In this document: piece by piece, positions 7,343-49,201 of the stretch
Layout: every line of letters starts with the position of its first letter
Position numbering within the stretch: the stretch's first letter is position 1
Assembly: GCA_026414565.1 (NCBI GenBank)
Contig: JAOAIT010000018.1
Span: 248,001 to 312,000, forward strand
From: Verrucomicrobiia bacterium
GTDB lineage: Bacteria; Verrucomicrobiota; Verrucomicrobiia; Limisphaerales; Fontisphaeraceae
Length of the DNA stretch: 64,000 nucleotides
Direction: 5' to 3'
Position numbers and translations under genes: made by a program
The notes under the pieces: model-generated
Databases searched by the model: none
Seen by the model: only the letters and a program-made list of their open reading frames with translations
What the model was told of the DNA's origin: nothing

Positions 7343-7440
7343 TTTGGGTCAGTTTGAAGATAGTCTTACGCGAAATTTTCGCAACCCTGAAGTTGACATT
7401 TTTATCGGCAACTGCCCCGGGATTCAGTAATCTTGAGGCC

Positions 7441-10400: not shown

Positions 10401-11094
10401 CCTGCCCAAAGCGCAAGGGCCTGCGCGCGCACACAAAATCCGCCTCAGCTCACCATCTTTGCGCTATCTCAAGATTGAAATCCTGTCCAATTACCAAGGC
10501 GTAACCTACCCCTGCGGCGATGACTCTCCCGATCATGGCTTTGTGGGGCTGGCCGAAATCCAGTGCATGGATACCTCCGGCCAGAAAGTTTCCGGGGTGC
10601 GCGTCGTTGCTTGTTCCAGTGAATTGCCCCAGCATCAACGCCTGGCCCGCTACCTGGTGGATGGCTCGGGTCTGCAGGGCGCCAAGCCGGGTTGGAATGA
10701 ACAAGGGCATCCCTTTTACGCCCAAGGGGTGGCTTACCGCCAGACCTACGAGCTTGCCCAACCCGCCGGCCGCTATTTCGTCCGTCTGCCCGACTGGCTC
10801 GGCAGTGTGGCGCGGGTGAAAGTGAACGGCAAACCTGCCGGCCATATTTTCACCCCACCCTACGAATGTGACGTAAGCCGGCATCTAAAAAGCGGCCGCA
10901 ATACCCTTGAAGTAACCGTGGTGGGCACGCTAAAGAACACGTTGGGACCCCATCATAATGGCCCCACCTTGGGTAGTGCCTGGCCCGGCATGTTTCAACG
11001 CGGCCCCACGCAAGGACCGCCACCGGGCAATCAATACTTTACGGTGGGGTATGGGCTTTTTGCGCCTTTCGAGCTGGAGCAAATAAGGCCATAA
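7441..11094 (+). CDS. Secreted GH106-like alpha-L-rhamnosidase
   Basis: A protein of 1217 residues from the ATG at 7441, which begins a signal peptide (MRNILPASLVLAAACLTCPVPAAA); the in-frame ATG at 7354 would hide it. The catalytic half opens with APLWVWNDRLT, VFVHPRPGLMTPYLS and WIYDENSYPSGFAGGW, followed by SFTDEPEL and FTGHYWEHEW. These fit the GH106 alpha-L-rhamnosidase fold (PF17132 type), which removes terminal rhamnose from rhamnogalacturonan-like glycans. Near residues 900-1000 a discoidin/F5-8-like segment (PWVVLDLGAAKTLGEIWIWN) is visible. The end (RVKVNGKPAGHIFTPPYECD) is a GH2-like jelly-roll typical of the family. It is followed by a prolyl oligopeptidase gene 121 bp downstream. 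The family is fairly secure; the exact substrate is inferred. Confidence 0.8.
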   Translation: MRNILPASLVLAAACLTCPVPAAAPAPALPSSVSIKKLFAQPPREYASAPLWVWNDRLTDAQIRETLRDLAEQNVKQVFVHPRPGLMTPYLSSEWFRLWKVALQEAKRLDMNVWIYDENSYPSGFAGGWVPELMPESRGRGLAFKEENAPPRWSDNTLAVFLMEGNTASDVSSRALRGENLPPGQYLVATMQRAKNSPWHGDRCYVDLLYPGVTEKFLEVTLEAYRRELGQEFGKRIPGSFTDEPELTPAGGLPWTEDLPKQFQQRWGYSLLTQLASLHRPVGDWQRVRHNYYQTLLDLFIERWAKPYYEYCEKHGLEFTGHYWEHEWPNARMVPDNMAMAAWQQRPGIDILMNQYAEHTHAQFGNVRSCRETASLANQLGRARTLVELYGAGGWDLRFEDMKRIADWLQVLGVNTMDEHLSYITIRGARKRDHPQSFSYHEPWWQDYHVHATYMARLSCAMSQGRQINRILVLEPTTTAWMWQGAPQLGELGGSFFNLLMALERAQIEYDLGCEDVLRNHGKVEKAQLIVGQARYDRVVLPRLTANLNRATLQLLGQYAAQGGVLLHLDDLPTRVDGQTSEAAKQALRGAQVTKISQDELISSLRDFMGQQGFSINRAPNDAGILFHHRRQLADGELLLLVNTSAEAPSSGLIQCDTAQGVEAWNLYTGAVEPYACEREGQGIRIRYSLPPVGSLLLYLSPQPLPSPAPPPATRQRLAAAGPMDIQRLEANVLTLDFVDVAAGGETRTNVYFYAANQFAFQKNGMPRNPWDSAVQFKDELIRKTFPAESGFTVTYRFFITGAVPSDLRFVVERPDLYTMTCNGHPITPMKGKWWLDKSFGVLDLRRVAQVGENVVSCTARPFRIEHEIEAAYVLGSFTLQPTDKGFVIAPDAPLAIRPALAEPVHNINPDNTMWLSGGVRFSPNVQDRQPWVVLDLGAAKTLGEIWIWNYCEGHVRDLTGRGAREIRLQGGLNSPTETPLELGRHTLPKAQGPARAHKIRLSSPSLRYLKIEILSNYQGVTYPCGDDSPDHGFVGLAEIQCMDTSGQKVSGVRVVACSSELPQHQRLARYLVDGSGLQGAKPGWNEQGHPFYAQGVAYRQTYELAQPAGRYFVRLPDWLGSVARVKVNGKPAGHIFTPPYECDVSRHLKSGRNTLEVTVVGTLKNTLGPHHNGPTLGSAWPGMFQRGPTQGPPPGNQYFTVGYGLFAPFELEQIRP

Positions 11095-16117: not shown

Positions 16118-16477
16118 TTATTTCTTAGGCAAATCTTGAAGTGTTTTAGTGGCTTCGCCCGCCGCCTTTTCCACCGATTTGGTCGCCCCCTCCGCAATGA
16201 GCTTTTGCAAGGCCTCGATGGTATCCTTGATGGCCTGTTTTTGCGCCTCGGTCAGCTTGGCTTTGGCATGAGTCTTCTGCAACTGAGTCAAGGCACCCGC
16301 CAGATCCTCCGCCTTGATGGCCTGGATGGCTTTCTCAATTTCTGACTTCACCGACGCCTCGGCTGAACTGAAGGCCGATTCCAGCTTGGACGTATCCACC
16401 TTCGACTTGCTGCCACAGCCCACCATGCCGCAGAGAGCCGCCACCAAGATTGCAATAGCTATGATTGTTGGTTTCAT
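16118..16477 (-). CDS. Small alpha-helical lipoprotein
   Basis: A 119-residue protein from the ATG at 16477. Residues 1-20 form a lipoprotein signal (MKPTIIAIAILVAALCGMVGC) with lipobox MVGC. The rest is A-, K- and E-rich amphipathic helix (AFSSAEASVKSEIEKAIQAI, KLTEAQKQAIKDTIEALQKL) without a catalytic motif. It resembles short lipoproteins common in Verrucomicrobia whose function is unknown. It is divergent from the GH28-like gene, with 139 bp between the starts. Confidence 0.75.
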   Translation of the reverse strand: MKPTIIAIAILVAALCGMVGCGSKSKVDTSKLESAFSSAEASVKSEIEKAIQAIKAEDLAGALTQLQKTHAKAKLTEAQKQAIKDTIEALQKLIAEGATKSVEKAAGEATKTLQDLPKK

Positions 16478-16616
16478 AATATGTACCGGCCACTTTACGC
16501 CGAACCTGTCAGATGTCAACCGACAGCAGTGTTCTCCGTCGTCTGGCCGGGCGGAGGTGTTTCTCTCCCAACAATTGCCATTGCATTATTTGTCCGCCTT
16601 TGTCAGCTTCACGGCG

Positions 16617-18038
16617 ATGACCACGCGGATGTTTTGGCTGGCGCTGGTGTGCGTCTTGCTGGATGGCTCAGCGGCCATGGCGGCCACGCTCAACGTCAAA
16701 GATTTTGGCGCGCAGGGGGACGGTCGCACCGTAGATACACCCGCCCTGCAAAAGGCCATGGATACTGCCGCCAGCCAGGGGGGCGGCACCGTAATCTTCC
16801 CTGCCGGTCGTTATCTTTCCGGCACGCTGCACCTCCGTGACAACCTCACCATGGTCTGGGAGGCAGGCGCCTGTCTCGTGGGCACAACCAACCTGGACCT
16901 CTACTCCGCCCCGAATCCCCCCGCCTACCTGCCGGAGGCCAGGTGGGGCAAGTGGCACCGTGGACTTATCATTGGCCAAAGCGTCACCAATGTTACGCTG
17001 TGCGGTCCGGGCAAAATTGACGGCAACCGCGTGTTTGATCCCACTGGCGAGGAGCGTATGCGGGGGCCGCATACCATAGTGTTTGTGGATTGCCGGAATT
17101 TTACCATTCGGGACCTGGAAATTGTGGATTCGGCCAATTACGCCATCTTTTTCCAGGTCAGCGACGAGGTGGAGATTCGCCGCGTGAAAATTCGTGGTGG
17201 CTGGGACGGAGTACATTGGCGGGGCGCGCCCGAGCGCTGGTGCAGGGATGTGCGAATCCTCGACTGCCAGATGTACACTGGCGACGATTGCATTGCCGGC
17301 CGATATTGGGAGCGCACCCTGATTCAGAATTGCGTGCTGAACAGCTCCTGTAACCCTGTGCGCATTATTGGGCCGGTGCGGCAGCTCATTCTCCAGCAAT
17401 GTCTCCTCTATGGCCCCGGTTTGGAGCCGCACCGCACGTCCAATCGCTACAATGCCCTGGCGGGCGTCAATCTGCAGCCCGGGGCATGGGACGCCACCCG
17501 CGGTTTGACCGATGATGTGCTCATTTCGGATGTCACCATGCATCATGTCGCCGCGCCCGTGCATATCTCTCTCAAACCCGGCAACACCGCCGGCACCATC
17601 CGTGTGCAACGGGTGAACGCCAGCGGCGTGTACCGGGCCGCCATGTCCGCAGAAAGTTGGGCAGATGCCCCCATCACCAACATCATTTTCCGGGACATCA
17701 CCGTGGAGTACACTGGTGGTGGCCGCGCCGTCTCACCCCTGGCCGCCGTAAAGTCCCCGGGGGTGGATGTGCGTCCGTTGCCAGCTTGGGGATTATACGT
17801 CCGCGATGTGCAAAATCTTGAGCTGGACCAAGTGCGGCTACGATTTGAAAAGCCAGATACCCGTCCGGCTCTGCTATTGGAAAAAGTCGGGGAAGCTTGG
17901 CTTGAACAGGTCTCAGTACGCCAAGCGGCGGACGCTTCTGCGCCCCTCCTTACCACGAACGTGGGTAAAGTCCATCTCCGGCAAACTAATTTCACCGAAC
18001 CTTTCCGAGAATTGACGCCTTCGTCTCCTGTTCCCTAG
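16617..18038 (+). CDS. Secreted GH28-like right-handed beta-helix protein
   Basis: A protein of 473 residues, starting at the ATG at 16617 with a signal peptide (MTTRMFWLALVCVLLDGSAAMAA). The mature N-terminus has the pectate-lyase superfamily opening VKDFGAQGDGRTVDTPALQKA and GGGTVIFPAGRYLSGTL, as in GH28 polygalacturonases. The TGDDCIAG segment gives the paired aspartates expected of GH28, but the usual NTDG and GHG motifs are not visible. It may therefore be a rhamnogalacturonan-acting or otherwise divergent enzyme. Many coils of the helix (IVFVDCRNFTIRDLEIVDS, DVRILDCQMYTG) follow. With the nearby GH106-like gene it suggests pectin side-chain or backbone breakdown. The upstream in-frame stretch back to 16314 lies antisense to the lipoprotein gene and is not coding. 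Confidence 0.78.
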   Translation: MTTRMFWLALVCVLLDGSAAMAATLNVKDFGAQGDGRTVDTPALQKAMDTAASQGGGTVIFPAGRYLSGTLHLRDNLTMVWEAGACLVGTTNLDLYSAPNPPAYLPEARWGKWHRGLIIGQSVTNVTLCGPGKIDGNRVFDPTGEERMRGPHTIVFVDCRNFTIRDLEIVDSANYAIFFQVSDEVEIRRVKIRGGWDGVHWRGAPERWCRDVRILDCQMYTGDDCIAGRYWERTLIQNCVLNSSCNPVRIIGPVRQLILQQCLLYGPGLEPHRTSNRYNALAGVNLQPGAWDATRGLTDDVLISDVTMHHVAAPVHISLKPGNTAGTIRVQRVNASGVYRAAMSAESWADAPITNIIFRDITVEYTGGGRAVSPLAAVKSPGVDVRPLPAWGLYVRDVQNLELDQVRLRFEKPDTRPALLLEKVGEAWLEQVSVRQAADASAPLLTTNVGKVHLRQTNFTEPFRELTPSSPVP

Positions 18039-28741: not shown

Positions 28742-29914
28742 TTGTTCCCCCTCCCCCCTTTCCCCTTGCCGGGAATCCCCGGATTCCGTCATGGTAGGCC
28801 TGTGCATTGGGCGCAATTAAGCCAGGTAGCGGGCGACGTCCTGGAGGCCATTCATAGCACGGCCTCCGGGGAGGATCTTCCCGCCACTGCGTTCAACACC
28901 CTGGCCCTGCGCTTGGCCAACGCACAAAAAGAAGTTAATCCCGTGTTGGCCGCCTTCTACGAGAGGTTGCCCGCGAGGGCTTGGAATTCATGGAGGGAGA
29001 TCCCTCCCATCTCTGTCGCGGCCTTCAAGGAAACCGAAATGACCTGTATCCCCCCGGCGGAGCGAACACACGTCTTTTATTCCAGCGGCACCACAAGCCA
29101 AAGCCGCAGCCGCCATTGGCATCATCAAGCCTCCCTACAGCTCTACGTCGAGGCCCTGAAACTCTGGTTTGCCCGGCATGTACTGGCAGGGAGTGGGGCC
29201 AATCCTCCTTCCCAATGGCTGCTGGTGAGCCTCACTCCTCCGCCTGCCCAAGCCCCTCATTCCTCCCTGGTTTACATGTTGGCCACGGCGATGGGTGCCT
29301 TCGGACTGCCAGAGTCCTGCTTTCTAGGCCATTCCAACGCCGACGGAAACTGGGTCTTGGACCTGCCCAAAACCACCTCGGCCTTGGAGTCTCTTTCCCG
29401 GCTCGGTCCTCCTCTGGTGCTGCTGGGTACGGCTTTTAATTTCGTTCATCTACTGGATTACCTCGCCGGCGAGAGCAGGCAGTTGCCCTTGCCGCCAGGC
29501 TCGCGATTGATGGAAACCGGTGGCTATAAAGGACGTTCACGTGACGTCCCCCCCGATGAATTACACGCCGCTCTACAATACCTATTTGCCGTTCCTCCCA
29601 CGGCCATCGTTCGAGAGTATGGCATGTGTGAGCTTTCCTCACAGGCTTACGACCGAATTGCCCTGCAGCCGGCCGCCCCAGCCCGTTTTCGGTTTCCCCC
29701 GTGGGTGCGGTTTCGCATCGTTTCGCCGGAAACTGGCATTGATTGCCCGCCTGGCGTGCCTGGGTTATTGTGCATTTATGATCTGGCCAATGTGTGGTCA
29801 GTCATGGCCATCCAGACGGCGGACCTGGCCGTGGGCCATGAAGATGGTTTTGAACTCCTTGGCCGCGCGCCTTTAGCTGAGCCGCGCGGGTGTTCGTTGA
29901 TGGTAAACGAATGA
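28742..29914 (+). CDS. LuxE-like acyl-protein synthetase
   Basis: A 390-residue protein of the LuxE domain family (PF04443), the acyl-activating subunit of the bacterial fatty acid reductase complex. The adenylate-forming motif is FYSSGTTSQSRSRH (112-125). ETGGYKGRSR and REYGMCELSSQ follow, as in the ANL-like fold. A cysteine close to the C-terminus (C384, in RGCSL) matches the position of the acyl-carrying cysteine of LuxE. The start is uncertain: TTG at 28742, with a downstream GTG at 28802 as alternative and no good ribosome site for either. It overlaps luxC by 4 nt. There are no luxA, luxB or luxD genes, so light production is not its role. Confidence 0.82.
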   Translation: MFPLPPFPLPGIPGFRHGRPVHWAQLSQVAGDVLEAIHSTASGEDLPATAFNTLALRLANAQKEVNPVLAAFYERLPARAWNSWREIPPISVAAFKETEMTCIPPAERTHVFYSSGTTSQSRSRHWHHQASLQLYVEALKLWFARHVLAGSGANPPSQWLLVSLTPPPAQAPHSSLVYMLATAMGAFGLPESCFLGHSNADGNWVLDLPKTTSALESLSRLGPPLVLLGTAFNFVHLLDYLAGESRQLPLPPGSRLMETGGYKGRSRDVPPDELHAALQYLFAVPPTAIVREYGMCELSSQAYDRIALQPAAPARFRFPPWVRFRIVSPETGIDCPPGVPGLLCIYDLANVWSVMAIQTADLAVGHEDGFELLGRAPLAEPRGCSLMVNE

Positions 29915-31272
29915 ATTTGCCGGATTATTTTCTAGCGGACATGCCGCCCGAGGCCGTCCTCTCGCCGGATTTGGTGCGGGAGGCCTGCCAAACCCTTCGT
30001 AAAAACCGCCAGACCTACCTTGTCCATCGGGATACGGCCGGGATCATCCGCACCCTGGCGGATTTGGGGGCTGCGTGGCTCGATGAAAGCTATCCCTTTC
30101 GCCAGACAGCGCTGCAAGAGGGCCCGGCGGCCACCGGATTCTCTGCGCCGGTATTGCAGCGGGGGCTTGACGATTATTTCCGGCAACTGACCGAGGCGAA
30201 TCTGCGAGCCCTGGTGGAGCAGGACCTGGGTCATTTCGAGCGTCTCGATCGCCTCGTGGCCTCTGACGCCGAGCGCCTCACGGGCATCCAGTCCGTTGCC
30301 ACCGGCCCGGAATTGATGTTTCACATCACCGCGGGCAATCTTCCCATCCCCGCACTCATGAGCATGGTGTTGGGGTTGCTTGCCCGCTCCAGTCAGTTTG
30401 TCAAATGCGCCACCGGCGCTGCATTCATCCCCCGCCTTTTCGCGCATTCCCTTTATGAGCTGGACTCCAAGTTGGGCGCCTGCCTGGAAATCGCCCAATG
30501 GCGGGGAGGGAGTGCGGATTTTGAAAAGATTCTGCTTGCCGAGGCTGACTGCATCACGGCCACGGGCTCGGATGAAACCCTGCAAACCCTGCGTCGCGTG
30601 GTACCCGGCCACGTTCGGTTTCTCACTTACGGCCACCGGGTAAGCTTTGGTTTCCTATGCCGTGAAGAGCTGTCCGCGCACGCGGCGAAATCCTGGGCGG
30701 CCAAAGCGGCACAGGATGTGGCGGCATGGGACCAGTTGGGCTGCCTGTCGCCGCACGTTTTTTATGTGGAACGGGAGGGGCGCATCTCGCCGGAGCAATG
30801 GGCAGAGATGCTGGCAGCCGAAATGGCACGCATGGAACAAATCATGCCTCGAGGCCCTGCACCGTTGGAAGTGACAGCCGCCATTGCGAGCCGCCGGGCG
30901 TTTTATGCCGTGCGCGCGGCAGCTTCGCCGGACACGCGCTTCTGGCAAAGCGAAGGTAATACAGCCTGGACGGTGGTCTATGAAGCCGATCCACGGTTTC
31001 AAGTGTCCTGTCTCCACCGTTTTATTTACGTCAAAGCCGTGGAAAACCTGGAGGAGGCCCTTCAGGGTGCAGATGACCTGCGCGGCAAAGTGTCCACCGT
31101 GGGACTGGCCGCCAGCTCCCAACGCCTGCCGGAGCTGGCCCGGCGCCTGGCCAGTTGGGGCGCCAACCGCGTGTGCCCATTGGGGCAAATGCAAAAGCCC
31201 CCCTTGACCTGGCGCCACGATGGGCGCCCGGCCCTCGGTGACCTCGTGGGCTGGACGCAGCTTGAAATGTAA
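29911..31272 (+). CDS. LuxC-like long-chain acyl reductase
   Basis: A protein of 453 residues from the ATG at 29911, which overlaps the luxE stop (ATGA). It belongs to the LuxC family (PF05893), distantly related to aldehyde dehydrogenases. The [12 protein letters not shown] segment matches the nucleotide-binding region, and [17 protein letters not shown] carries the catalytic cysteine (C278). LuxC accepts an acyl group from LuxE and reduces it with NADPH to a fatty aldehyde. Here the pair has no luciferase or thioesterase partner, so it probably supplies fatty aldehyde or alcohol for lipids, wax or a surface modification. queD begins 5 bp downstream, so the transcript may continue. Confidence 0.85.
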
Positions 31273-37076: not shown

Positions 37077-40000
37077 TTAGGGCTGAGTGGTGCTCGCCGC
37101 CACGCGGTAGAACCGCTTGGAGCCGGCCGGAGCAGGATCAGCCAAGGTCAGCACGCCGCCCGTGCCTTGCACTGCCGGCAGGCGCTGCCACTGGGCATCG
37201 TTCAGGTCGTTCTTGTACTCAATCCAGTACCAGGCACCTGCCACCGTCTCGACCGTGAAGGAGAATCCCGCCGGCCCATACACCGGTGCGGTTATATTGG
37301 GCGCTGTCGGAGGCAGAACGACGGTCACCACCAAGGTCGCATCCTGGCTCATGGTCGAACCCACACTGTTGCGAACCTCGACGCTGTAAACGCCAGCCGA
37401 GGCAGGCATGACATTGGTAAGCGTCAATGTCGCACTGGTGGCTCCGTCTATATTCACGCCATCCTTCTTCCACTGGTAGAGCGCCGGATCACCACCAATC
37501 GCCGCCACGGTGAACACGACCGTACTTCCCGCAGTCGCGGTGACATTGGTCGGCTGCACCGTGATCAGTGGCGGCACCGTCGGATACACGCTGAGGTTGG
37601 CCCGGTTGGTCGCCGTCAACCCGATGCCGTCCGTAGCAATCATGGTGATGGTGTGAGTGCCCAGCGGCAGTTCACTGCCCGGAGCCGGGATTTGCTCAAT
37701 GACCACATAGCACCCGTTGTCCGTCGCCACCACTTGCGAGCGCAGATCGGGCACCACCAGGAGGTGATTCGTACCCGCGCCCATCGTTTGATCCTGCAAT
37801 CCGGTCACAAACACCGGCGGCACAGGCGTGGTTTCGGCGATAATCACCGTCACCGCCTGATAGACCGTGCTGCCCGTCTGCCCGTCATTGACGGCGTAAT
37901 AGAAGGTATCCGCACCGCACGCAGACGGTGGCGGCGTGTAGGTGACCTGACCGCCAGCCACCGAGACTGTGCCGCCCTGGGCCGTATTGCGCGGCACGGC
38001 GAGGATGTACAGGTCATCCATGTAGTGCGCCTCGTATTCACCACCCGTGCGGGCGTAGATGCCGAAGCGGCCACCGGTGATGGGCTGGTAGGGAGTCTGC
38101 ACGTTATTGAAGTACATGACCCCGCCCAGGGCCACATCCACCGTGCCGTCAGCGTCCATGCGGATGTAGAGGTCCTGGTAATCGCTCATGTTAATCTTGG
38201 CGATCGGATAGCGCAGCAGCCACGAGCCAACCCGCACCTCGATGGCCGGGGCTTCGTTGCCGCCGCTATTGTAGTTGTCAATGTTGACGCCAAAGCCACT
38301 GCCGACACCGTCCTCGGCCGGTCCGGGCGACGGGCCATCGGGCAGATCGGTGGCGAAGTTGATGCTCATGCCATCGGCGGCATTCGCCGACCCACGTCCG
38401 ATGAACAGCTTGGCACGGATCGTGAATTCGGAGACCGCCATGGCGCTGATGGCGGAGTCATTCACCACGAAGCTGCCATTCAGGCTGCCCACAGGGTCGG
38501 TCAACTTCAGGACGCCGCTATTACCCACCCCACCCGCGGCATCAATGTAGGCGTTACCGTAGGTCATGGTGTTGACCGGCAACAAGCCGTCGTTGAAGTT
38601 GTAGGACAGCTCCCGCGGCAGACCGGCGTACACCCGCTCAAAGTTGAGCGTGGCCCCTTCCGGATCACTGTCATTGGCCAGCAACTGCGCAACGGGCACC
38701 GTCACCGGCGTATTGGCCTGGGTGGTCAGGGTATCCGCCCCTGTCACTGGACGTTGATTGACCACATTGACCACCAGCGGCTGGCTGGAGGTCTCGCCGC
38801 CATGGTTACCCGCCACCACCACATACACGCCCCCATCCGCCACCTGGATGTTAGGCAGTTGCAGGGTGGCGCTGTTGGCTCCCGGAACGAGCACACCATT
38901 CTTGAACCATTTGATGGTCAGCGGGCCGCTGTTGGGCGGATTCACAATTGTGGCGGTGAGGGTGACCGACCCGCCCAGGTTGACCTGGATGTTCTCCAGG
39001 GACGAATCCACCGTCAACGACGGCGGCGGCGGGAAGTACAGGTTATCATACACCGCTGTGGCCCGGATGTTCATGTCATGCGAGGTCGTCGCCAAGCCCA
39101 CGAGCAGCGTCCGGGCCAGCGAGGACACCCGCGTGTAATGCCAGATCCAGTTCACGCCATCATAGCTGTAGTAGGCCGAGAAGGCGTTGCCCTGGCGCAC
39201 CAGCCGCACCCAGTTGTTCGGATAATCGGCCAACGGCGGCCGCACCAGACCAATGGCAGCATCACCGGTGCTTTGGGAGTTGGGCGCCACCGCCGAATCA
39301 CGCCACTGGAACGAGAAGGTGTTCTGGCCGCCACGCGGCGTCGAGCACATATACACGTTGAAACTGGCGTTATTAGTGGTTTCACGGGCCATGATACCCG
39401 CCTTGGTCCAGGCGTTGGCCTGCGTCAGGCTTTGCACGCGGACGCGGATATCGAAGTCACCCGTCACCGGGCGATACATCAGTTGACCGCCGTCAGTGGT
39501 TCCCCAGATGTCCACACCGTCGCAGTTCACACTAAAGACTCCCAGATCCAGCATGGAAACCACGCTCGGTCCGGTGAGCTGGCCCAGCCCCAACCCGATA
39601 TCTGCCAACCTGAATCCATAATTTTGGATCGTGGCCGACAGATTAAAGGCCAGGTTTTGGCTCCGGTCATAAGCCATCTGGCAGGCAAGCTCAGTGCCCG
39701 TGGCCAGGTAAGAGTCAGACGTCAGCTTGACGGTCCGGCCGTCCGGCAACAACTCACCGCTCAAGAAGTTGATGGTACCGTTGTTGGCCGAATACAAGGT
39801 GGCATCGGCCGGGTTGTAGAGCACGGTCTCCAACAACTCATTGAATCGCACATACAACTGATAACCGTCCAAGGCAACCGCCCATTGTATGGTAGGTGGC
39901 TCGACATCAGCCACAACGGTGACCGTCGCCACGGCGCTCTCGACGGGAGCGGCGCCAGGAGCCATGACCACCACCGAGTAATTCACCGCCACCAAGTCAG

Positions 40001-43000
40001 GCGTCAAGATCGGGGTAGTGTACACCGGCCCGTTGGCGCCGACAATGTTCACGCCGTTGCTGCGCCACTGGTAGGCCAGGAATTCAGTCAGTGGCGCCGG
40101 ATTCACGGCAGCCTGCACTGACAGCGTCGCAGAACGATAGGCCACCACGTTGGCACTTTGCGGCGGCTGCGTGATGGTAATCGCCGAGGGCGGAGCATAG
40201 ACCCCAATCCCCGAGCCGCCCAGCGGTGGTAACGTGGACGGATCGGTGTAGCTGGGATCGCTCACGTCAATCCACGGACGGATGGCCAAGCGGAAGTAGT
40301 CACCGCCGCCGCCCTCCTTGCCCAACACCTCAAAGAAGTACCGCTGTCCGGCCACCAAGTTATTGGTGAAGGAGCGGAGGCCATCGGCAAAGGTACCCTG
40401 ACAGCACGGTTGGTTGATAATTTCCACCGCGTTGGCGGGATTGTCGTCCGGGCTGGCCCGGACAATCACCGCATCATCATGGGCCACATAAATCACGTGG
40501 GGCCCGCTGACTTGCGGCGTGAAGAAGCCGCGGATGACCGCGCCGTAATTGTTCCACAGCGCATCGGTCAGGTTGTTACCCAGATTCACGAAATTGGTGA
40601 AACCGGTAATGTCAGCCGTACGCGCCTGGTACTTCGCATTGTTCGTCAGATCGGTGATGGCCGATCCGGTAATGTTGGTGTACCGCTCGTAGTACACGAA
40701 GTTGGTGGTGAAGGTCCACGCCGTCACCGTAGTCACCAAGGCGCCACTCACATTCGGTGTCGCCGCCCGATCGGCAATATTGGCCGCAACCACGGTATAA
40801 GTGGCCCCCTCGGTGGGCAGCGGGCTCAGCGTCAGCAAGACGTCACGGTTGTTGGCCATTAACTGGGCACTGACGACCGTTAAGGCGCCGGCGTCATTGG
40901 TCACGAGATAATTGGCGGTATTGCCCGCCGAGGCGGCCGACACCGGCTCGCTGAAGCGCAGCCAGAACTCGCGTGTGCCGCGCCAGCCACCCTGCGCCGC
41001 CACCAGCGTGGGCGCTTCGAGATCGCGCACCACATTAATGACGGTGGGACTGCTGGTGATGCTGTTGTAGGTCGTCACGACCACCACATCCACCGCCATG
41101 CCATTATGCGCGGCAAACGACAGGGTTGGCGTGGTGTAGGTGCGGTTGGTGGCATTGGCCACCGGCACCCCATTGGTGCGCCACTGGATGCTGACCAGCG
41201 GGAAGCCATCAATTTGCGGAGCCAGGGTCACCGTCGCCAGTTCATTCGTCGTGATGCTGGCCGGCAAACCGGTGACGCGCGCAAACGAGTTCGGGGTCAG
41301 ACCGGACAAATTGTCCGGCCCGATTCGGGAAATAACACCGTTGACCGGATCGATATCACCCGGTGCTTTCCAGTTGATGGCCACATAGTCGCCACCGCTG
41401 CCTTCACGATGACGCACTTCAATGTAGTAGGCCTTGCCCGCCTGCAAGAAGATGGGCACCGAGATGTTGGCTTGCATGCCGGTAGCCGGATTAATACCGC
41501 GACGGCCACCGGCGTTGCTGGTCCAATCCCGCGAGTTTCCATAGCTCGGTTCGTAGCAGATGAGCCGAATATTGGCCGGATTCTCATCCGTGCTCAGGTA
41601 CAACTCGCCATTGTCGTCGGAGGCAATGTAGAAGGTGTAGTTTCCGGTCCGCTCTGGGATCAGGTAACCCTGGAAGCGGGTGGCATAGTAGTCAATGTTC
41701 AGTGTCGGCTTGTCCGGCACCGTCATCAACTCGATGACGGACGGCTGATCGTTAAGCCACACCGTGGTGTTGGTCAGGGCCGACAGCGAGCCCGGATTAT
41801 TGCTCGAGGTGAAGTTATACTGTTTGCGGACAATATAACCTTGAGGCACCCAGAACTTGTAACTGGTGTTGGCGGGCACTGGGTTGGCCGGACTCACGGT
41901 GTCCGTCACGTTGTTCACGATCACATTGTACGCTGCGCCCGGCATAAGTGCCTGGGCCAGTGTCAGCAACACCGTCGTGCCATCGGCCTGCAGCGCCGCC
42001 GAGACCACCGGCACGTCGGCCAGACCATCAGTAATCCGGTAGTTGGCCGTGTTGTTGGCGGTGGCGGGAGCCAGAGCTTTGTTGAACATGACGCGTACCT
42101 GCTCGCGCGCCATGACTTTCACGCTGGCCCCGATGATTGCCGGCCCCACGGCATCCGGAGCCGAAAGGATGACCGTGCCGATGGCGCTGGCGAAACCGCT
42201 GGGCGTGTAACACATGACGCGGAAGCGGTTGGTAGGTTCGCTCACCGGCGGAGTCACATAAGTGTTGGCCAGGGCGTAGGGGATGTTGGTGAACACGCCG
42301 GAGCCATACGCCGTTTCCCGCTGCCAGACATATTGGATGGGCAGCCGCGTGTCGATGCCCGCCGCCATGACGGTCAACGTGGCGGATTGTCCCGGAGCCA
42401 CGGTCACGGTGCCCGGCGGTTGCAGCACATAGACATCCGTCCGATTCTCCGGCGCCACCGGCATGAGGAAGTAGGCGCCGCTGGTACCCGGCTCGGAGCT
42501 GTTGTCGCTGGGGACGTAGTAGTTGTTGGGACCGCGAATGATGGCCGTCACGTAATCCCCACCCGTGCCCTCCTGCATCACGGCCTCCACGTAATAACGC
42601 TGGCCTGCCGACAAGGCGGCAACGGAGTAACGCGGATTGCCGTTGACAGTGTTGTTGAAGGCCACGTTGGCAGATTCAACCCTGGCCACCACCTGCTTGC
42701 CTTCGGCAGCCGGTCCGGTGGGATTGACAAATAAGATGGAGCCATCATCGCTGCGCACATAGAAGGCGTAGTTGCCGGTTTCCGGCGGGACAAACCAGCC
42801 AATGACCCGGGCGCCGTAATATTCCAAATTGGCGGGCGCATAATAAAAGATATTGCGCACATCCACCACGTCCGGCTGTTTGTCCACAAACTTCTGGTTA
42901 AGGTAGAGACCGCTGGCCGGCGTGCCCGGGGCCACAAAGTCCCACTTCCCAATCTCATCGTACCGCTCCACACGCACAAAGCCCTGAACCAGGAAGTGCG

Positions 43001-46000
43001 AGGTGAAGTTCGTGGCGACGGTCAGTGAGGGCCCATTGACGCCCGCAGCCCGGATGTCGGTGAGGGTCAAGGGATAAGTGGTGTATTCACTCTGCGGGCC
43101 GGTAGCCACGAAGATGGCCCTGCCATCCGTACGCAAACGCCAGCCGTAAACCGGAAGCCCGCCGCCCACCTGGATGGCGTTCGGAGTATATACCGACGCC
43201 GGATCCAGCGGACGGTTGAATTCGATAATCGCCCCGTCCATGGTAGCCTCGGAGCGGATCCGCACAATTTGCAGCGGCGTCGGGTCTTCGGCGAAGGCAA
43301 TCGTTACGCTCGCCTCCGCCCGGCTGAAGGCGTTGCTGATTACATACGTGTAAACGGTGCCGGCGTCGGCGGGAGTAGCGTTAATTTCCAAAGTGTAACC
43401 CCGCCCGGAAGCCCCCGGAATGGGTACGCCATTGCGGTACCATTGCATGATGTAAGGTCCGGCGCCCTGGATACCCCGAGCTTTCAAGACCACGCGGCCC
43501 GCATAAGTCAATGGCATTGCAGGCGTAATCTCCTGCACGCGCACCGGACCAAGCGGCGCCTCAAACAGCGAGGCGGGGATGAAGGAATCCGACGCGGGGG
43601 TGGTAGTGCTGTTGATGGTGTAGGCGATGCCGAAGCCGTCGCCACCCGTGCCTTCCGCATGGATGAATTCGAAGTAGTAACGCTGGCCCGCCACCATGTT
43701 AATGCCGCCCAATTGATAGCGGTTGCCAGTGCCGTAGTTGGTGCCCGATGAACCGCTGCTATAGGCAATCAGCACGGCATCAGCCGGATCCCAACTATTA
43801 ACGGCATTGGTATTCATGAACATCCGCGAACCGTCGTCCGACTTGATCCAGAAGCGGTACAAACCGGAGCTTTGCGGCACGAAATAGCCGCGGACCCGCG
43901 CACCATAGTTGTTCAGGGTCGAATCAATGAAGTTCGGGAAGTTAAATACGGGCGCATTGGTGTAATACAGCACGTCCACCGCGCCTCCCAGAACCCGCGG
44001 ATGATAAATCAGGTCCTGCAAGCGGCCGCCGTAGTTGGGCACGTTCTGCCACATCTCGAACAGGATGGGATTGCTCGCATAATTGGGAGCGGTCACCGAG
44101 CGAGTGACCTCTGCCAAGGGGTTATTGGCAGCGTCAGTCATGTTGATGAAGGTCACGTTGTAGTTGGCGCCCGCAATCAGGGCAGCATTCACAGTGAGCA
44201 CCACCCGAGTGTTGTTGCCATAAGGCTCGGCTTTCAATACCGTCAGGGGGGTGTTCCCTGCGTCCACAACCAAATAACTTGCGATGTTGGTCAATGCGCT
44301 CAGGCTCATGCCCTCGGAGAAGGTGACGAGCAGGCTGTTGGTGGATCCCGGGGCCACCACCACCGAGGAAACGGTGGGTGCCGTGCTATCCGTCATGTTC
44401 ACCACCAGCTCCCGGGAAATCGCCTGCGCGCCCGGCACTTGAACAATGCAACGGTAGCGGGCTCCATGATCGCTCCAATACCGCAACGTGGGCGTGGTGT
44501 AGGAGGCGCTGGTGGAAGCCACTCCCGGAATGGTCACAAACGAGCTGCTGCCGGGCTCTGCACGTTGCCAGATGTAGCGAAGCTCTGAAGCCGGCGCCAC
44601 CGTCGCGGTGGCGGCCACCGTCAGGGCCAGGGTGTTACTGTCAGCTACACTGGCCGAGGCAGCCAGGTCGGTGGTGATGGTCACCGTGGCTCCAGGATAA
44701 GTAAATTCGCCAAAGTCACGGAAGCGGCCCGAGGCCTTGCCCATGTACCAGTTGGCATTGTAGTGTACCGTGCCAAACAGGCCCACCCACATCGTCTCCG
44801 GCGAACTCTTGGTATAGGAACCGGTCAGCACCGTCCAAGTGACCCCGTTGGTGCTGGCGTAGGGCGTAAAGGTATCGCCCGCACGGCGCAAGCGAATCCA
44901 ACAGTTCGGGAACGTCACCACCGGCGTGGTGGCGCTGTGAATGGTGGCAGCCCCCTCGGCCGGAGTGGCCCGCCGGCCGGCTTCAAACCGGTTCAGGCCC
45001 TGCCACAACAGAGACGTGGCCGGCGGGAACGGATGCACCGTCACCCACGGTGCGGCAGAATACAAGTCGTCGCGGGCCGTCAGACCAAACTTGGCCAGAT
45101 CAGAGGAATTTTGGGCCTCCATAATCAGTGTCTCAGGGGCGCGAACGATTTCTTCCACCCGCACCACGATATCAAAGTCGCCCTTGCGCGGAATCAGGAA
45201 GAAATACCCCTGGTCACTGTTGCCCCACACATCTGCACCGCCGGCAGAGAAATCAATGGCATTGGGGGCTGGAGCCGCTTCAACATTGCCATAAACCAGC
45301 GGATAACCAATGTTGGTTCCGAGGTAGTTCCAGTCCCACCCGGTGCCGGCCACCGTGCCCCCGCCCACGTTGCCACTGGCATCCGCAATGTTGGCCGCAG
45401 TCACCGAGAAGGTGGTGGAAGGCAGCGCCGTGAGCAAATCCAGTCGTACGGTCCGGTAATCATCCAACAAAGTGGCCTTGCCCACGCTGGCACCGGTCAC
45501 TGTGTAGTTGGCCGGGTTTTCGGCCGTGGCTTTGGTCACTGTCTCGCTGAAGACCACCGTGGCCAAATGCCGTCCCGCCGCACCGGCCGAAACCAGGGTT
45601 GGCCCGGTGGTGTCAGTGCCCTGGACGGTGAGTCGCGCCACACTGCTGGTCACCGAGCCATAAGGGCTGGAGGCCACCACATAATACAACGTCCCATTCA
45701 TCGCCGCGTTGGCCGGCGGAGTCGTGTAAATAATGTTCGTCGCCCCCGGAATGGCCACACCATTGGCATACCACTGCAGCGAGGGGCTGGCCAGCAAGCT
45801 GCCTTCAAGCCCCACCCGGAAAGTGGCCAGCGTGCCGGGCGTCACAGTTTGCGACAGAGGCGCCGAGGAAATCAACGGCAGCGGCCGATAATCCTCGTAA
45901 ATGGCGAGGTCGTCCAGGTTGTCAGTGCCCGTATCGTTGTTGCCGCGGAAGGAGACAAACACATCCGGATCCCGCGCGATGACAGTGTTCGGTATCAGCA

Positions 46001-48860
46001 TGGGCGCGAAGTAATGGACCATGCGGCCGGGCACCAGGCCATCGGCACCATAATCCCACACATGACCGGTTACACGGATGTTGTAGTTGTCCACGTTTTC
46101 AAACCAAACGACCACCCTGTACCAACGGTTGTTCAGCGGTCGGTTGCGATTGACCACGATGCCGTCCACCACGGTGGTGTCGGTTGACTCCTTGTTTTGG
46201 AAGCGGAAGTCAGTTTCCGGGCTGCTGTTGGCCACGGTGTCCCAGCGCAGCGTAATCCATTGTTTGTCCGCATCGGCATTTGGCCGGCTCTGCGGCCCCT
46301 GCACCAGGCCCAACTGGAGAATGCGCTGCGGGTTGCCGCTGCCGCCCGCCGTCTTGAATTTGACCATCATGGTCACGCCAATGACTTTGCCGGCGCGTGA
46401 GAAGTTGAAGCTGCGGTTGGTCAAGGTGGCCGAACCGTCCGCATTGTTCGGGAGATCGAGCGATGGAGAGTTGCTGACACCGCCGGTGTTTACCCAGTTG
46501 AAATTGCCCGCATTGGTGTGATAGGTGCTCTTGAAGCCGGCTTCCGTATTGAAGGGATCAAAGAACGTGGGCGCCGGATAATTAACCTGCAGGGTGGCGG
46601 CGGAACTGGTGGTGGCGCCCCGGTCGTTCATGGCCACCACGCTGTAGCGTCCCACGTTTTGCATGTTGGCGTTGTTGATCACCAGCGTCGCCGACGTGGC
46701 GCCCGGAATATCAATCCCGTTTAATTGCCATTGGAAACTGGCCGGCGGATCGGCATTGACCGCCACGGTGAAGGTGGCGCTGCCGCCGATGATCGTGGTT
46801 TGATTGGCCGGTTGCGTGGTGATGATAGGGGCAAATTTCACATCCAGAAATGCCACCGAACTGGTCTGACTGAAGAAGTTGTTGGCCACCACCACCGAGT
46901 AGTTGCCTTCATTGGTGATTTGAATGTTATTGAGCGTAAAGGAAACATTGGTGGCCCCGCTCACCAGTTGGCCGTCCTTGTACCACTGGTATGTCAGCAG
47001 GTTCCCCGTGGCCGCCACCGTGAACGTATGGCTGCCGCCCACGCCCACCACCGCTCCCTGCGGGGGTGTGGTGATGCTCACCGGCAGCACCACCGTCACA
47101 TTGGCCACGGTGCTGGTGGCGGCCCCCAAATCGTTTGTGATGATCGCCCGATACTGCCCGGAATCGGCGGCCGTCCAAGACAACCGCGCGAAGGCGTTGG
47201 AAGCAGGCGCCTCAGAGGTCACATTTTGCCACGCTGTATCCACCAGTTTCTGCCAGATAAAGGTCAGCGGCGTCTGCCCACGGGCCTGGATGCTGAATCC
47301 GCCGAAGCTCGCCTCGGCGAAGTAGTACTGCGCCTGCGGCTGCTGGGTGATTACCGGCACCAGTAACACTGTCACCGTGGCCACCGAACTGGTCACGCTG
47401 CCCGCGGCATTGGCCACCACCACGTCATAGGCCCCTCCGTCGCTAATTGCGGTATTGCTCTTTGAATAACTGGCACTGGTGGCCCCGCCAATGTTGGCAC
47501 CGTCCTTCCGCCATTGGTAGGTCAGCGTCCCCTGCCCCACCGCCACCACCGAAAGATTGAAGGTGCCGCCCTCGGGCACGCTGACACTTTGCGGCTGCAC
47601 CACAATGGCTGGAGGCGTCAGCACGCTGCGCTCCGGCGACTGGCTGCTCTCGCCCTCAGGCAAATTGCCCGTGACAACGTAGTAGTAAGTGGCGCCATTG
47701 GTGATGGTATTGTCGCTGTAGCTCGTGCCCGACACGCTGCCGCTGAGCAACTGATAGGGTCCACCCGAAACCAGCGAGCGATACACCTTGTAGCTCGTCG
47801 CTCCTGTCAAGGCCGGCCAGCTCAAATCAACCTGGCCGTTATTATAGGTCGCCGTCAGGTCCGCCACCGCCGCCAAGGGCAAGCCGCTGACTTCCGCCGA
47901 GTAGAACCCTTCACCCAGCGCGGAAGCCGCATTGATGATGTAGTAATAAGTGGTGCCATTGACCAGACCCGTGTCCAAAAGCGCCGTTTGCGTGGTGTTG
48001 GTGATCAGCGTGTACGGCCCGCCCGCCGTAGTGGCACGTTGGATGTTATAACTGGAGGCACCGCTTACCGGCGCCCAGGAGAGCCGCAGCGCCCCGTCGC
48101 GCCGTTGCACCGTTATCGAAGGCGCGGGCAGTGCCTGGGCAATAACGACCCCATAAGACGCCCGGCCGCCATTGTCCGGCCCAAAGGTTTTCACCAGACC
48201 CGCAGGCACCGTTTTGACATAGACCGACATGAAATCGTTAAGCGAGCCGTCGTTGTTGTTGTCGTTGGCCACTTCATCCGGCCAGTCCGCCCGCCCGGCG
48301 CGGTTGAGGCCGTTCATTACCGCGACCCAGCCATTAGTAACCAGCCATTGCATGTTGTTGGGACCGAAGACTGGCGGGTCGTTTGCGTTCGGAGTGGCTT
48401 CGCCCAGACGGTTGTCCACCAACAGATAGACGCGGGACGGCACCGCCAGGTAGATGTCCAGCACCAAGTTGGTGTTATCACGATTGTCATTGCCAATCAT
48501 GATATATTCCGCCCCCTGCAAATAAGGCAGGGACACCGGCTGGCCCAATCCATTGGTGAACCATTTCCAAGTGTGCGTGCGGTCCACGTAGGCAGGAACA
48601 CCGTTGTCAAAGAGGGGCACGGTGTATGGGTCTAGAAATTCGCCGGGCACCCCGTTGGTGAAAGTCACCCCGGTCCATTTGGCCGTAACGGTGTCCGTCG
48701 GTTCATTATCGCCCCCCGTTTCCACCACATTGGTGATATTGGGGAAGGCCATCAGGGCCAACGTCATGAACACGTACGCGACCATCACGCCAAGGCGGGC
48801 GGGCCAGCGGCGGAAGGTCCGGGCCAGTTGACGATACGTGGAGACAGGCTTGGTTTTCAT
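37077..48860 (-). CDS. Giant modular secreted surface protein (Fn3, Ig-like, PA14, ConA-like)
   Basis: An open frame of 3927 residues. The ATG at 48860 starts a basic N-terminus and a signal/membrane segment (VMVAYVFMTLALMAF). Domains in order, by nucleotide position: two Fn3 domains (48130-47620); four Ig-like domains with QPQSVSVPEGGTF-type starts (47610-46570); a LamG-like jelly roll (46570-45900); an Ig-like domain; six tandem modules (45625-38750; see the repeat entry); a cadherin-like domain with a jelly roll inserted (38750-37830); an HYR-like domain; an Ig-like domain; and a C-terminal GFSFTVETVAGAWYWIEY domain seen at the end of many verrucomicrobial surface proteins. Several PA14 units have SDDGS-type calcium loops. 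Likely function: adhesion, or binding of glycans at the cell surface. No catalytic domain or sorting tag is seen. Confidence 0.93.
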   Translation of the reverse strand: MKTKPVSTYRQLARTFRRWPARLGVMVAYVFMTLALMAFPNITNVVETGGDNEPTDTVTAKWTGVTFTNGVPGEFLDPYTVPLFDNGVPAYVDRTHTWKWFTNGLGQPVSLPYLQGAEYIMIGNDNRDNTNLVLDIYLAVPSRVYLLVDNRLGEATPNANDPPVFGPNNMQWLVTNGWVAVMNGLNRAGRADWPDEVANDNNNDGSLNDFMSVYVKTVPAGLVKTFGPDNGGRASYGVVIAQALPAPSITVQRRDGALRLSWAPVSGASSYNIQRATTAGGPYTLITNTTQTALLDTGLVNGTTYYYIINAASALGEGFYSAEVSGLPLAAVADLTATYNNGQVDLSWPALTGATSYKVYRSLVSGGPYQLLSGSVSGTSYSDNTITNGATYYYVVTGNLPEGESSQSPERSVLTPPAIVVQPQSVSVPEGGTFNLSVVAVGQGTLTYQWRKDGANIGGATSASYSKSNTAISDGGAYDVVVANAAGSVTSSVATVTVLLVPVITQQPQAQYYFAEASFGGFSIQARGQTPLTFIWQKLVDTAWQNVTSEAPASNAFARLSWTAADSGQYRAIITNDLGAATSTVANVTVVLPVSITTPPQGAVVGVGGSHTFTVAATGNLLTYQWYKDGQLVSGATNVSFTLNNIQITNEGNYSVVVANNFFSQTSSVAFLDVKFAPIITTQPANQTTIIGGSATFTVAVNADPPASFQWQLNGIDIPGATSATLVINNANMQNVGRYSVVAMNDRGATTSSAATLQVNYPAPTFFDPFNTEAGFKSTYHTNAGNFNWVNTGGVSNSPSLDLPNNADGSATLTNRSFNFSRAGKVIGVTMMVKFKTAGGSGNPQRILQLGLVQGPQSRPNADADKQWITLRWDTVANSSPETDFRFQNKESTDTTVVDGIVVNRNRPLNNRWYRVVVWFENVDNYNIRVTGHVWDYGADGLVPGRMVHYFAPMLIPNTVIARDPDVFVSFRGNNDTGTDNLDDLAIYEDYRPLPLISSAPLSQTVTPGTLATFRVGLEGSLLASPSLQWYANGVAIPGATNIIYTTPPANAAMNGTLYYVVASSPYGSVTSSVARLTVQGTDTTGPTLVSAGAAGRHLATVVFSETVTKATAENPANYTVTGASVGKATLLDDYRTVRLDLLTALPSTTFSVTAANIADASGNVGGGTVAGTGWDWNYLGTNIGYPLVYGNVEAAPAPNAIDFSAGGADVWGNSDQGYFFLIPRKGDFDIVVRVEEIVRAPETLIMEAQNSSDLAKFGLTARDDLYSAAPWVTVHPFPPATSLLWQGLNRFEAGRRATPAEGAATIHSATTPVVTFPNCWIRLRRAGDTFTPYASTNGVTWTVLTGSYTKSSPETMWVGLFGTVHYNANWYMGKASGRFRDFGEFTYPGATVTITTDLAASASVADSNTLALTVAATATVAPASELRYIWQRAEPGSSSFVTIPGVASTSASYTTPTLRYWSDHGARYRCIVQVPGAQAISRELVVNMTDSTAPTVSSVVVAPGSTNSLLVTFSEGMSLSALTNIASYLVVDAGNTPLTVLKAEPYGNNTRVVLTVNAALIAGANYNVTFINMTDAANNPLAEVTRSVTAPNYASNPILFEMWQNVPNYGGRLQDLIYHPRVLGGAVDVLYYTNAPVFNFPNFIDSTLNNYGARVRGYFVPQSSGLYRFWIKSDDGSRMFMNTNAVNSWDPADAVLIAYSSGSSGTNYGTGNRYQLGGINMVAGQRYYFEFIHAEGTGGDGFGIAYTINSTTTPASDSFIPASLFEAPLGPVRVQEITPAMPLTYAGRVVLKARGIQGAGPYIMQWYRNGVPIPGASGRGYTLEINATPADAGTVYTYVISNAFSRAEASVTIAFAEDPTPLQIVRIRSEATMDGAIIEFNRPLDPASVYTPNAIQVGGGLPVYGWRLRTDGRAIFVATGPQSEYTTYPLTLTDIRAAGVNGPSLTVATNFTSHFLVQGFVRVERYDEIGKWDFVAPGTPASGLYLNQKFVDKQPDVVDVRNIFYYAPANLEYYGARVIGWFVPPETGNYAFYVRSDDGSILFVNPTGPAAEGKQVVARVESANVAFNNTVNGNPRYSVAALSAGQRYYVEAVMQEGTGGDYVTAIIRGPNNYYVPSDNSSEPGTSGAYFLMPVAPENRTDVYVLQPPGTVTVAPGQSATLTVMAAGIDTRLPIQYVWQRETAYGSGVFTNIPYALANTYVTPPVSEPTNRFRVMCYTPSGFASAIGTVILSAPDAVGPAIIGASVKVMAREQVRVMFNKALAPATANNTANYRITDGLADVPVVSAALQADGTTVLLTLAQALMPGAAYNVIVNNVTDTVSPANPVPANTSYKFWVPQGYIVRKQYNFTSSNNPGSLSALTNTTVWLNDQPSVIELMTVPDKPTLNIDYYATRFQGYLIPERTGNYTFYIASDDNGELYLSTDENPANIRLICYEPSYGNSRDWTSNAGGRRGINPATGMQANISVPIFLQAGKAYYIEVRHREGSGGDYVAINWKAPGDIDPVNGVISRIGPDNLSGLTPNSFARVTGLPASITTNELATVTLAPQIDGFPLVSIQWRTNGVPVANATNRTYTTPTLSFAAHNGMAVDVVVVTTYNSITSSPTVINVVRDLEAPTLVAAQGGWRGTREFWLRFSEPVSAASAGNTANYLVTNDAGALTVVSAQLMANNRDVLLTLSPLPTEGATYTVVAANIADRAATPNVSGALVTTVTAWTFTTNFVYYERYTNITGSAITDLTNNAKYQARTADITGFTNFVNLGNNLTDALWNNYGAVIRGFFTPQVSGPHVIYVAHDDAVIVRASPDDNPANAVEIINQPCCQGTFADGLRSFTNNLVAGQRYFFEVLGKEGGGGDYFRLAIRPWIDVSDPSYTDPSTLPPLGGSGIGVYAPPSAITITQPPQSANVVAYRSATLSVQAAVNPAPLTEFLAYQWRSNGVNIVGANGPVYTTPILTPDLVAVNYSVVVMAPGAAPVESAVATVTVVADVEPPTIQWAVALDGYQLYVRFNELLETVLYNPADATLYSANNGTINFLSGELLPDGRTVKLTSDSYLATGTELACQMAYDRSQNLAFNLSATIQNYGFRLADIGLGLGQLTGPSVVSMLDLGVFSVNCDGVDIWGTTDGGQLMYRPVTGDFDIRVRVQSLTQANAWTKAGIMARETTNNASFNVYMCSTPRGGQNTFSFQWRDSAVAPNSQSTGDAAIGLVRPPLADYPNNWVRLVRQGNAFSAYYSYDGVNWIWHYTRVSSLARTLLVGLATTSHDMNIRATAVYDNLYFPPPPSLTVDSSLENIQVNLGGSVTLTATIVNPPNSGPLTIKWFKNGVLVPGANSATLQLPNIQVADGGVYVVVAGNHGGETSSQPLVVNVVNQRPVTGADTLTTQANTPVTVPVAQLLANDSDPEGATLNFERVYAGLPRELSYNFNDGLLPVNTMTYGNAYIDAAGGVGNSGVLKLTDPVGSLNGSFVVNDSAISAMAVSEFTIRAKLFIGRGSANAADGMSINFATDLPDGPSPGPAEDGVGSGFGVNIDNYNSGGNEAPAIEVRVGSWLLRYPIAKINMSDYQDLYIRMDADGTVDVALGGVMYFNNVQTPYQPITGGRFGIYARTGGEYEAHYMDDLYILAVPRNTAQGGTVSVAGGQVTYTPPPSACGADTFYYAVNDGQTGSTVYQAVTVIIAETTPVPPVFVTGLQDQTMGAGTNHLLVVPDLRSQVVATDNGCYVVIEQIPAPGSELPLGTHTITMIATDGIGLTATNRANLSVYPTVPPLITVQPTNVTATAGSTVVFTVAAIGGDPALYQWKKDGVNIDGATSATLTLTNVMPASAGVYSVEVRNSVGSTMSQDATLVVTVVLPPTAPNITAPVYGPAGFSFTVETVAGAWYWIEYKNDLNDAQWQRLPAVQGTGGVLTLADPAPAGSKRFYRVAASTTQP
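38750..45625 (-). repeat. Six tandem three-domain modules within the giant gene
   Basis: Each module runs: an SbsA-like Ig domain (D-x-x-x-P-T start, then VxFSExxxxAxxxNxANYxV), a middle domain, and an Ig-like domain (WQR- or W-x-x-NGVPI-type core). Module starts are near 45625, 44393, 43290, 42160, 41025 and 39912, a period of about 1.1-1.23 kb. The middle domain is PA14 in modules 2-5 (YGARVRGYFVPQSSGLY, YYATRFQGYLIPERTGNY and the like). In modules 1 and 6 it is a ConA-like DUF1349-type domain (GDFDIVVRVEEI and GDFDIRVRVQSL). The copies are well diverged, so there is no long exact DNA repeat. Confidence 0.8.
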
Positions 48861-49201
48861 GGTGCTCACTGCTTTGAGGGTTCTAAATGACACCCCACAC
48901 GCCCCCTGCCCGATAGGGCGGGCTACCAGGCAACCACATAAAACAGCTTGTGGCTGAGGCACGTTTGGATGTCATTGCTGGGTTATAAAATTAGAGAACC
49001 GTCCAAAAAATGCAAGCCTGAATGAGAAAAAAATCTAAAAATTTTTATCCCCAAAATTGGTGACGTCCACAGCAAGCAAAGACCTCATGGTCTTGCGCGA
49101 ATCGGACCTCAAGCACGTTCAACATGTTGAGTTGCCGCCATTTTTTTCATTGTCACCCCCACCTCCCTGGCGTGAAGATGCGGGGGAAATTTCAGCGCCC
49201 T
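48861..49201. promoter_or_regulatory. Divergent intergenic region between the giant gene and the thioesterase gene
   Basis: A 341-bp gap with no gene. The middle (about 48985-49062) is strongly AT-rich, unlike its surroundings, and probably holds the promoter of the giant gene; a TATAAC -10 candidate at 48989-48984 lacks a good -35. A perfect 12-bp palindrome TCAACATGTTGA lies at 49119-49130. In-frame upstream starts of the thioesterase (ATG 49178) fall inside this region. Confidence 0.4.

Follow-up and report, generated by a model that had tools for sequence, protein, structure and literature searches.

Giant genes raise the question of whether the repeats they encode were multiplied in place or put together from modules that also exist elsewhere, and of what the resulting protein may do for the cell. 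We address this question for a single gene in a stretch of 64,000 nucleotides from a Verrucomicrobiia bacterium (hereafter, the window; positions 248001-312000 of contig C18 in the 4.3-Mb genome G000). The open reading frame lies at window positions 37077-48962 on the minus strand, as do all features of the protein given below, and it encodes 3961 residues when counted from a GTG codon and 3927 when counted from an internal ATG (M35). The overall order from the N to the C terminus is two FN3 domains, four immunoglobulin (Ig) domains, a LamG domain, an Ig domain, six units of the form Big5-X-Ig, a split cadherin-like domain with a LamG, a HYR domain, an Ig domain and a C-terminal domain. It is the six Big5-X-Ig units, and the origin of the array they form, that concern us in the first place.

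Six copies of one three-domain unit

Domains were cut by hand, and the result was then checked with Pfam and with hidden Markov models (HMMs) iterated on the window protein and related proteins. An earlier reading made from the sequence alone (hereafter, the sequence-only reading) had described, at 38750-45625, a triplet of an SbsA-like Ig domain, a middle domain and an Ig-like domain, repeated six times with a period of about 1.1-1.2 kb in a protein of 3927 residues. The analysis bears this description out. The unit boundaries come out at 38760-45617, the units measure 408, 368, 377, 378, 372 and 383 residues (1104-1224 bp), and the protein length matches a count from M35. The order Big5-middle-Ig was found in 6/6 units by the iterated local HMMs (144-211 bits for the middle domains), and these HMMs, Pfam and an AlphaFold2 (AF2) model of units 5 and 6 together confirm the four types of domain. 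The middle domain is of the ConA (DUF1349) type in units 1 and 6 and PA14 in units 2-5, as had been proposed, with Pfam, HMM and fold matches in agreement. Unit 1, the N-terminal cap, occupies 44394-45617 (Big5 45330-45617, ConA 44706-45329, Ig 44394-44705), unit 2 lies at 43290-44393 (Big5 44082-44393, PA14 43551-44081, Ig 43290-43550), unit 3 at 42159-43289 (Big5 42999-43289, PA14 42444-42998, Ig 42159-42443), unit 4 at 41025-42158 (Big5 41856-42158, PA14 41289-41855, Ig 41025-41288), unit 5 at 39909-41024 (Big5 40710-41024, PA14 40191-40709, Ig 39909-40190), and unit 6, the C-terminal cap, at 38760-39908 (Big5 39615-39908, ConA 39033-39614, Ig 38760-39032).

The PA14 domains of units 2, 3 and 4 are above the Pfam cut-off (E 3e-9, 7e-8 and 3e-10), and that of unit 5, which reaches only E 0.03, was assigned by HMM, AF2 model and fold match. 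For Pfam DUF1349 (PF07081), units 1 and 6 taken alone score 21 and 28 bits against a cut-off of 32.4, and the whole protein scores 38.2 bits, above the cut-off. Big_5 (PF13205) is matched in units 2-4, with units 2 and 4 above the cut-off, as is one further unit in the genome search; the remaining Big5 domains were detected by local HMM only. Both the Big5 and the Ig of unit 1 were missed by Pfam and recovered by the iterated HMMs. With no more than 25-32% identity between the array copies along most of their length, the repeat is one at the protein level; chance is excluded by the colinear blastp matches between units, which reach E 3e-25.

The AF2 model of units 5 and 6 (755 residues, 28-row alignment A5) had a mean predicted local distance difference test score (pLDDT) of 84 and a predicted template-modelling score of 0.57. 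Compared with PDB structures, its Big5 domain is nearest to the S-layer protein SbsC (2ra1; Z 16.3 over 98 residues, root-mean-square deviation (rmsd) 1.4), to which the sequence match is weak (E 1.5e-4). The PA14 domain matched RsgI3 (Z 14.4), Cea1 (13.4) and Lg-Flo1 (12.7), and the ConA domain of unit 6 matched 3mep (Z 21.7 over 171 residues, rmsd 2.3) and C-terminal domains of GH43 enzymes (Z up to 17.9). The Ig domain is I-set-like, with matches to MALT1 (Z 13.7) and a Dscam Ig (Z 12.7). Sequence searches back the assignments of the Big5, PA14 and Ig folds. A pair of consecutive Asp residues is present in 4/4 window PA14s and aligns with the DD of Flo5; in PA14 lectins this pair is the DcisD motif, which binds the Ca used in sugar binding (PMC8092209). 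An E-G-x-G-G-D loop is likewise common to the window PA14s and may correspond to the second binding loop of MpPA14.

The sequence-only reading had also stressed the symmetry of the array. The order ConA, four PA14, ConA stands, but an outer pair of LamG domains had been overlooked, with which the ligand-binding-type domains read LamG-ConA-PA14x4-ConA-LamG. The N-terminal member of this pair (45891-46583, residues 818-1022), LamG/ConA-like, escapes recognition by Pfam and was seen by a local HMM (251 bits). The C-terminal member (37998-38627, residues 3468-3653) is inserted in a cadherin-like/Big_9 domain (37836-38759), whose halves (38628-38759 and 37836-37997) match positions 1-43 (28 bits) and 41-82 (31 bits) of Big_9 and, when joined, positions 1-82 at 63 bits. 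The idea that a mirrored duplication produced the pair was discarded, since blastp gives no match between the N-type and the C-type LamG. Symmetry as a signal was set aside as well: with two ConA and four PA14 domains, 3 of the 15 possible orders are palindromic by chance, so that the palindrome is not remarkable alone.

Ancestry and relatives of the units

The best blastp scores that units 1-6 obtain within the array are 72, 102, 75, 92, 102 and 72 bits, versus 224, 221, 145, 193, 165 and 209 bits outside the genus; the outside units were collected for their similarity to the window protein, a sampling that suits the question of whether closer units exist. None of the six units has its closest match inside its own array; all are nearer to units found in other proteins. 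Trees of 41 PA14 cassettes and of 22 ConA cassettes, with approximately unbiased (AU) tests of constrained clades, point in the same direction. Window units 2-5 as one clade were rejected (p-AU 0.00025), also when the PA14 domain alone was used (p-AU 0.002), and units 1 and 6 were rejected as sisters (p-AU 0.0004). The single series of duplications in place that the sequence-only reading had envisaged is not supported by these results. Unit 2 is sister to unit 2 of a protein in G013, a genome of another family, unit 1 pairs with unit 1 of the same G013 protein, unit 6 falls with the final units of the arrays in G013 and G041 (also another family), and unit 5 groups with cassettes that belong, in G002, to a different protein (97%). 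The ConA units at the two ends represent distinct lineages of old age, each conserved in its position in other families.

A direct matrix against the G013 protein is one-to-one at the ends (224, 221 and 175 bits for units 1, 2 and 6), and units 3-5 have no clear partner in it. The fourth unit of the G013 array has a LamG as its middle domain, which means that middle domains are exchangeable; because this LamG is of the same lineage as the outer LamG at the C-terminal side of the window array, a binding domain has also changed place. A tree of the six window units alone did not resolve their deep relations. Within a unit, Big5 distances and Ig distances are correlated (z 4.2, with the effects of rate and orthology only partly removed), and more strongly so than across unit borders (Ig with the next Big5, z 2.9; Big5 with the previous Ig, z 2.1); the type of middle domain predicts Big5 similarity (z 5.7). 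We read the triplet as a cassette whose parts tend to travel or to be retained jointly and whose middle can be exchanged, and not as one tandem-duplication series; the flow of cassettes may have been from pool to array or from array to pool.

Some part of the array has a relative in 76 of the 78 genomes searched, most of them from the same taxonomic order as the window. The stretch from the N-terminal LamG to unit 2 has a strong match (E 1e-40) in only 7/320 genomes of the order, the window's own counted, and a scan of genome contigs with this stretch gave no yield. In G001, of the same genus, the domain order is identical, with 86% protein identity over the array. The G013 protein reads LamG, then ConA, PA14, PA14, LamG, PA14, PA14, ConA, and that of G041 reads LamG, ConA, PA14 pair, PA14 pair, ConA, LamG, LamG, so that a near-identical order (LamG-Ig-ConA unit, PA14 units, ConA unit) is present in all three genomes; in G013 and G041 the N-terminal outer LamG is of the same lineage and in the same place. 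A paralogue on contig C53 of the window's genome reads ConA, then four PA14 units, with a second ConA further along. The named loci that bear Big5-X-Ig cassettes are mostly from Verrucomicrobiota, including Pedosphaera and Limisphaera, which fits an origin of the window in this phylum; arrays of PA14 units closed by a ConA unit at the C-terminal side are frequent there. Our literature search found no paper joining the PA14 domain, Verrucomicrobia and a giant protein.

Two further observations concern such relatives. Another multi-PA14 array with a terminal ConA unit is encoded in G013 by two adjacent frames of 1338 and 1122 residues that overlap by ~70 bases (L071:1569-8878), which represent either a frameshift or a split gene. 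Giant proteins of ~3200-3500 residues that start with PA14-Ig-Big5-ConA are widespread in Verrucomicrobiota (L040, L048, L049 and many of L096-L150), and the two that were scanned, L040 and L049, carry LTD and CotH domains.

Alignment with the orthologue of the sister species, G001 (3959 codons, 85% protein identity), gave a nonsynonymous rate (dN) of 0.098 for the whole protein and a ratio to the synonymous rate (dN/dS) of ~0.08. The dN minimum falls on the middle domain in units 2-6, and in unit 1 the middle domain ties with Big5. PA14 domains have values of 0.052-0.077 and ConA domains of 0.066-0.078, and Big5 and Ig reach up to 0.26 and 0.17, respectively. This pattern fits binding domains carried on more freely evolving spacers. 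What the sequence-only reading had said of an old divergence rather than a recent expansion, of a triplet kept as a unit and of a functional unit is in keeping with, respectively, the near-identical order in other families, the within-unit correlation of Big5 and Ig, and the strong purifying selection.

Proposed function and alternatives

Our preferred interpretation, to which we assign a probability of about 0.6, is that the gene encodes a secreted, fibrillar-adhesin-like multivalent glycan binder, whose array was assembled from cassettes circulating among the giant proteins of the lineage. The protein would be secreted and displayed at the surface as a rod, in which pairs of Ig-type spacers (SbsA/SbsC-like Big5 and I-set Ig) would space the ligand-binding domains along the chain. 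The putative binders are the four PA14 domains, which resemble Ca-dependent lectins, with two DUF1349-type ConA and two LamG-like domains to either side of them, and through many weak contacts they may allow the cell to hold glycans, be it algal or plant polysaccharide, matrix or other cells. The array would have been built over long times, with its ends held in place and with turnover of its interior and of the type of X. The six carbohydrate-binding faces proposed earlier are plausible for the PA14s, whose DD aligns with the Ca site of Flo5, and unproven for the DUF1349-type ConA domains; with the outer LamG pair there would perhaps be eight.

The protein might alternatively serve not to attach the cell but as a scaffold that captures polysaccharide and concentrates it for the secreted enzymes that degrade it. 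Also encoded in the window are a GH106-like alpha-L-rhamnosidase (7354-11094) and a GH28/pectate-lyase-like protein (16314-18038), and PA14 has been counted as a carbohydrate-binding module in Verrucomicrobia (PMC5615132). However, the immediate neighbours of the giant gene are housekeeping genes, for which reason operon context was discarded as a guide to function, and the Pfam scan of the giant protein found no catalytic or dockerin-type domain. We regard such a role as possible, though rather improbable. With respect to the origin of the array, it could be argued that one Big5-X-Ig unit was multiplied long ago inside the window protein and that its copies were later exported, so that neighbours are no longer closest. 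The units do align colinearly with one another, their Big5 and Ig correlate within units, and Big5 and Ig alone do not reject one clade (p-AU 0.107), but this scenario is unlikely in view of the rejection of both the PA14 clade and the sisterhood of the ConA ends, the grouping of unit 5 with units of a different protein, and the exchanged middle type in G013. A structural matrix, sheath or S-layer-like protein with PA14 and ConA as mere building blocks, to which the SbsC-like Big5 fold, the many all-beta domains and the giant length would be suited, is equally doubtful given that the middle domains evolve more slowly than the spacers, every PA14 retains the DD motif of the Ca site and a LamG is placed within a split domain.

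Several points weigh against the glycan-binder interpretation. The result for Big5 and Ig alone, just mentioned, is one of them. Another is that in a larger, partly orthologous set made up of all available cassettes (Mantel test) distances correlate strongly across unit borders too; this signal is probably driven by whole-protein orthologues, but because of it the unit phase rests on the equal-sample test and its exact position is only moderately supported. In addition, dS is near saturation in the comparison with G001, we know of no ligand for DUF1349, the fold matches show ConA-like domains as non-catalytic components of GH43 enzymes as well, and a search of the giant protein recognised no anchor, whether RTX, sortase or of another kind.

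The C terminus may be relevant to the latter point. The last 77 residues (37080-37310; 37077-37310 with the stop codon) form a small FN3-like domain (AF2 pLDDT 93; best Z 7.8, which is middling) with the pattern ...YxvEYxxxLxxxxWxxl...RFYRV-stop. The window copy has no Pfam or NCBIfam match, and 28 members have no consistent one. In the window's genome there are 63 model matches at E 0.01, and in a single-sequence search of that genome (loci L152-L181) 28 of the 30 matches read in detail, on proteins that are otherwise different, end at most 10 residues from a stop codon; at loci of other genomes this holds for 33/36 within 12 residues. The domain occurs in 48 of the 145 genomes taken as a sample of the phylum (E 1e-4). 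A natural guess, based on this recurrence, is that it could be a common sorting or anchoring domain of Verrucomicrobiota, and this unnamed domain offers a handle on how such giant proteins may be sorted or anchored. More speculatively, Verrucomicrobiota might possess an open cassette system for surface recognition, in which Big5-X-Ig cassettes, with PA14, ConA or LamG as X, recombine among dozens of giant proteins that have this C-terminal domain in common, giving each strain its own glycan-binding repertoire; we consider this broader idea possible, though rather improbable.

The ancestry of the units indicates that a giant bacterial protein, here presumably of the cell surface, need not be a repeat expanded in place but can be a mosaic made from a portable cassette of three domains, in which the two spacers are fixed and the putative binding domain between them can be exchanged. 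This opens the evolution of surface recognition to testing in bacteria of which few have been cultured and which have many giant genes.

Remaining domains and comparison with known systems

The N-terminal part of the protein begins with the likely start at M35 and a signal-peptide-like segment (48729-48860), judged by eye from a basic and then hydrophobic stretch (LGVMVAYVFMTLALMAF). It is followed by a domain of ~200 residues (48132-48728) that has no match by sequence in Pfam, NCBIfam or PDB, two FN3-like domains (47625-48131; Pfam fn3 E 3e-4 and local HMM) and four Ig domains of the I-set/Ig_3 type (46584-47624; I-set 1e-33, Ig_3 1e-32). An Ig spacer detected by local HMM (45618-45890) separates the N-terminal outer LamG from unit 1, and a HYR-like and an Ig domain (37311-37835; HYR E 5e-4, Ig_3 E 6e-12) precede the C-terminal domain. 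Elsewhere in the window, LuxE-like acyl-protein synthetase and LuxC-like acyl-CoA reductase genes are adjacent on the plus strand (28742-31272). The window's genome is rich in giant genes, other open reading frames encoding 10043, 6813, 5610 and 5132 residues (C44 108099, C12 72283, C70 37964 and C55 100651, respectively).

Among known systems, the SbsC/SbsB S-layer Ig domains resemble the Big5 spacer in fold and, weakly, in sequence, but the window Big5 domains are single spacers between lectin-like domains and not a tandem, lattice-forming array. The end domains share their fold with the DUF1349/ConA-like protein 3mep and with the C-terminal ConA domains of GH43 enzymes, whose catalytic domain the window protein lacks. 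In RTX adhesins, ligand-binding domains emerge from split domains (PMC12077191). With those that have a PA14 lectin (MpIBP/MpPA14, AhLap), the window protein has in common a PA14 with the DD motif and the insertion in a split domain, here of a LamG in an Ig/cadherin-like one. It differs in having four PA14s in separate cassettes instead of one, and in lacking an RTX C terminus; a Pfam scan of the whole protein yielded no RTX/hemolysin-repeat family, which sets it apart from RTX adhesins.

A survey of fibrillar adhesin-like proteins describes them as combining stalk domains with adhesive domains, of which PA14 is among the most common and most of which occur once per protein (PMC8286594). The window protein likewise combines a very long chain, many Ig-type stalk domains (Ig_3, I-set and Big_5) and known adhesive domains (PA14), with both stalk and adhesive families scoring above the Pfam cut-offs. 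Unlike these proteins, it has no anchor motif that we could recognise, and it alternates binding-type domains with spacers in the middle of the chain. The same cassette grammar is present in the PA14-Ig-Big5-ConA N terminus of the LTD/CotH giant proteins of Verrucomicrobiota, the remainder of which, where scanned, differs in being made of lamin-tail and CotH domains.

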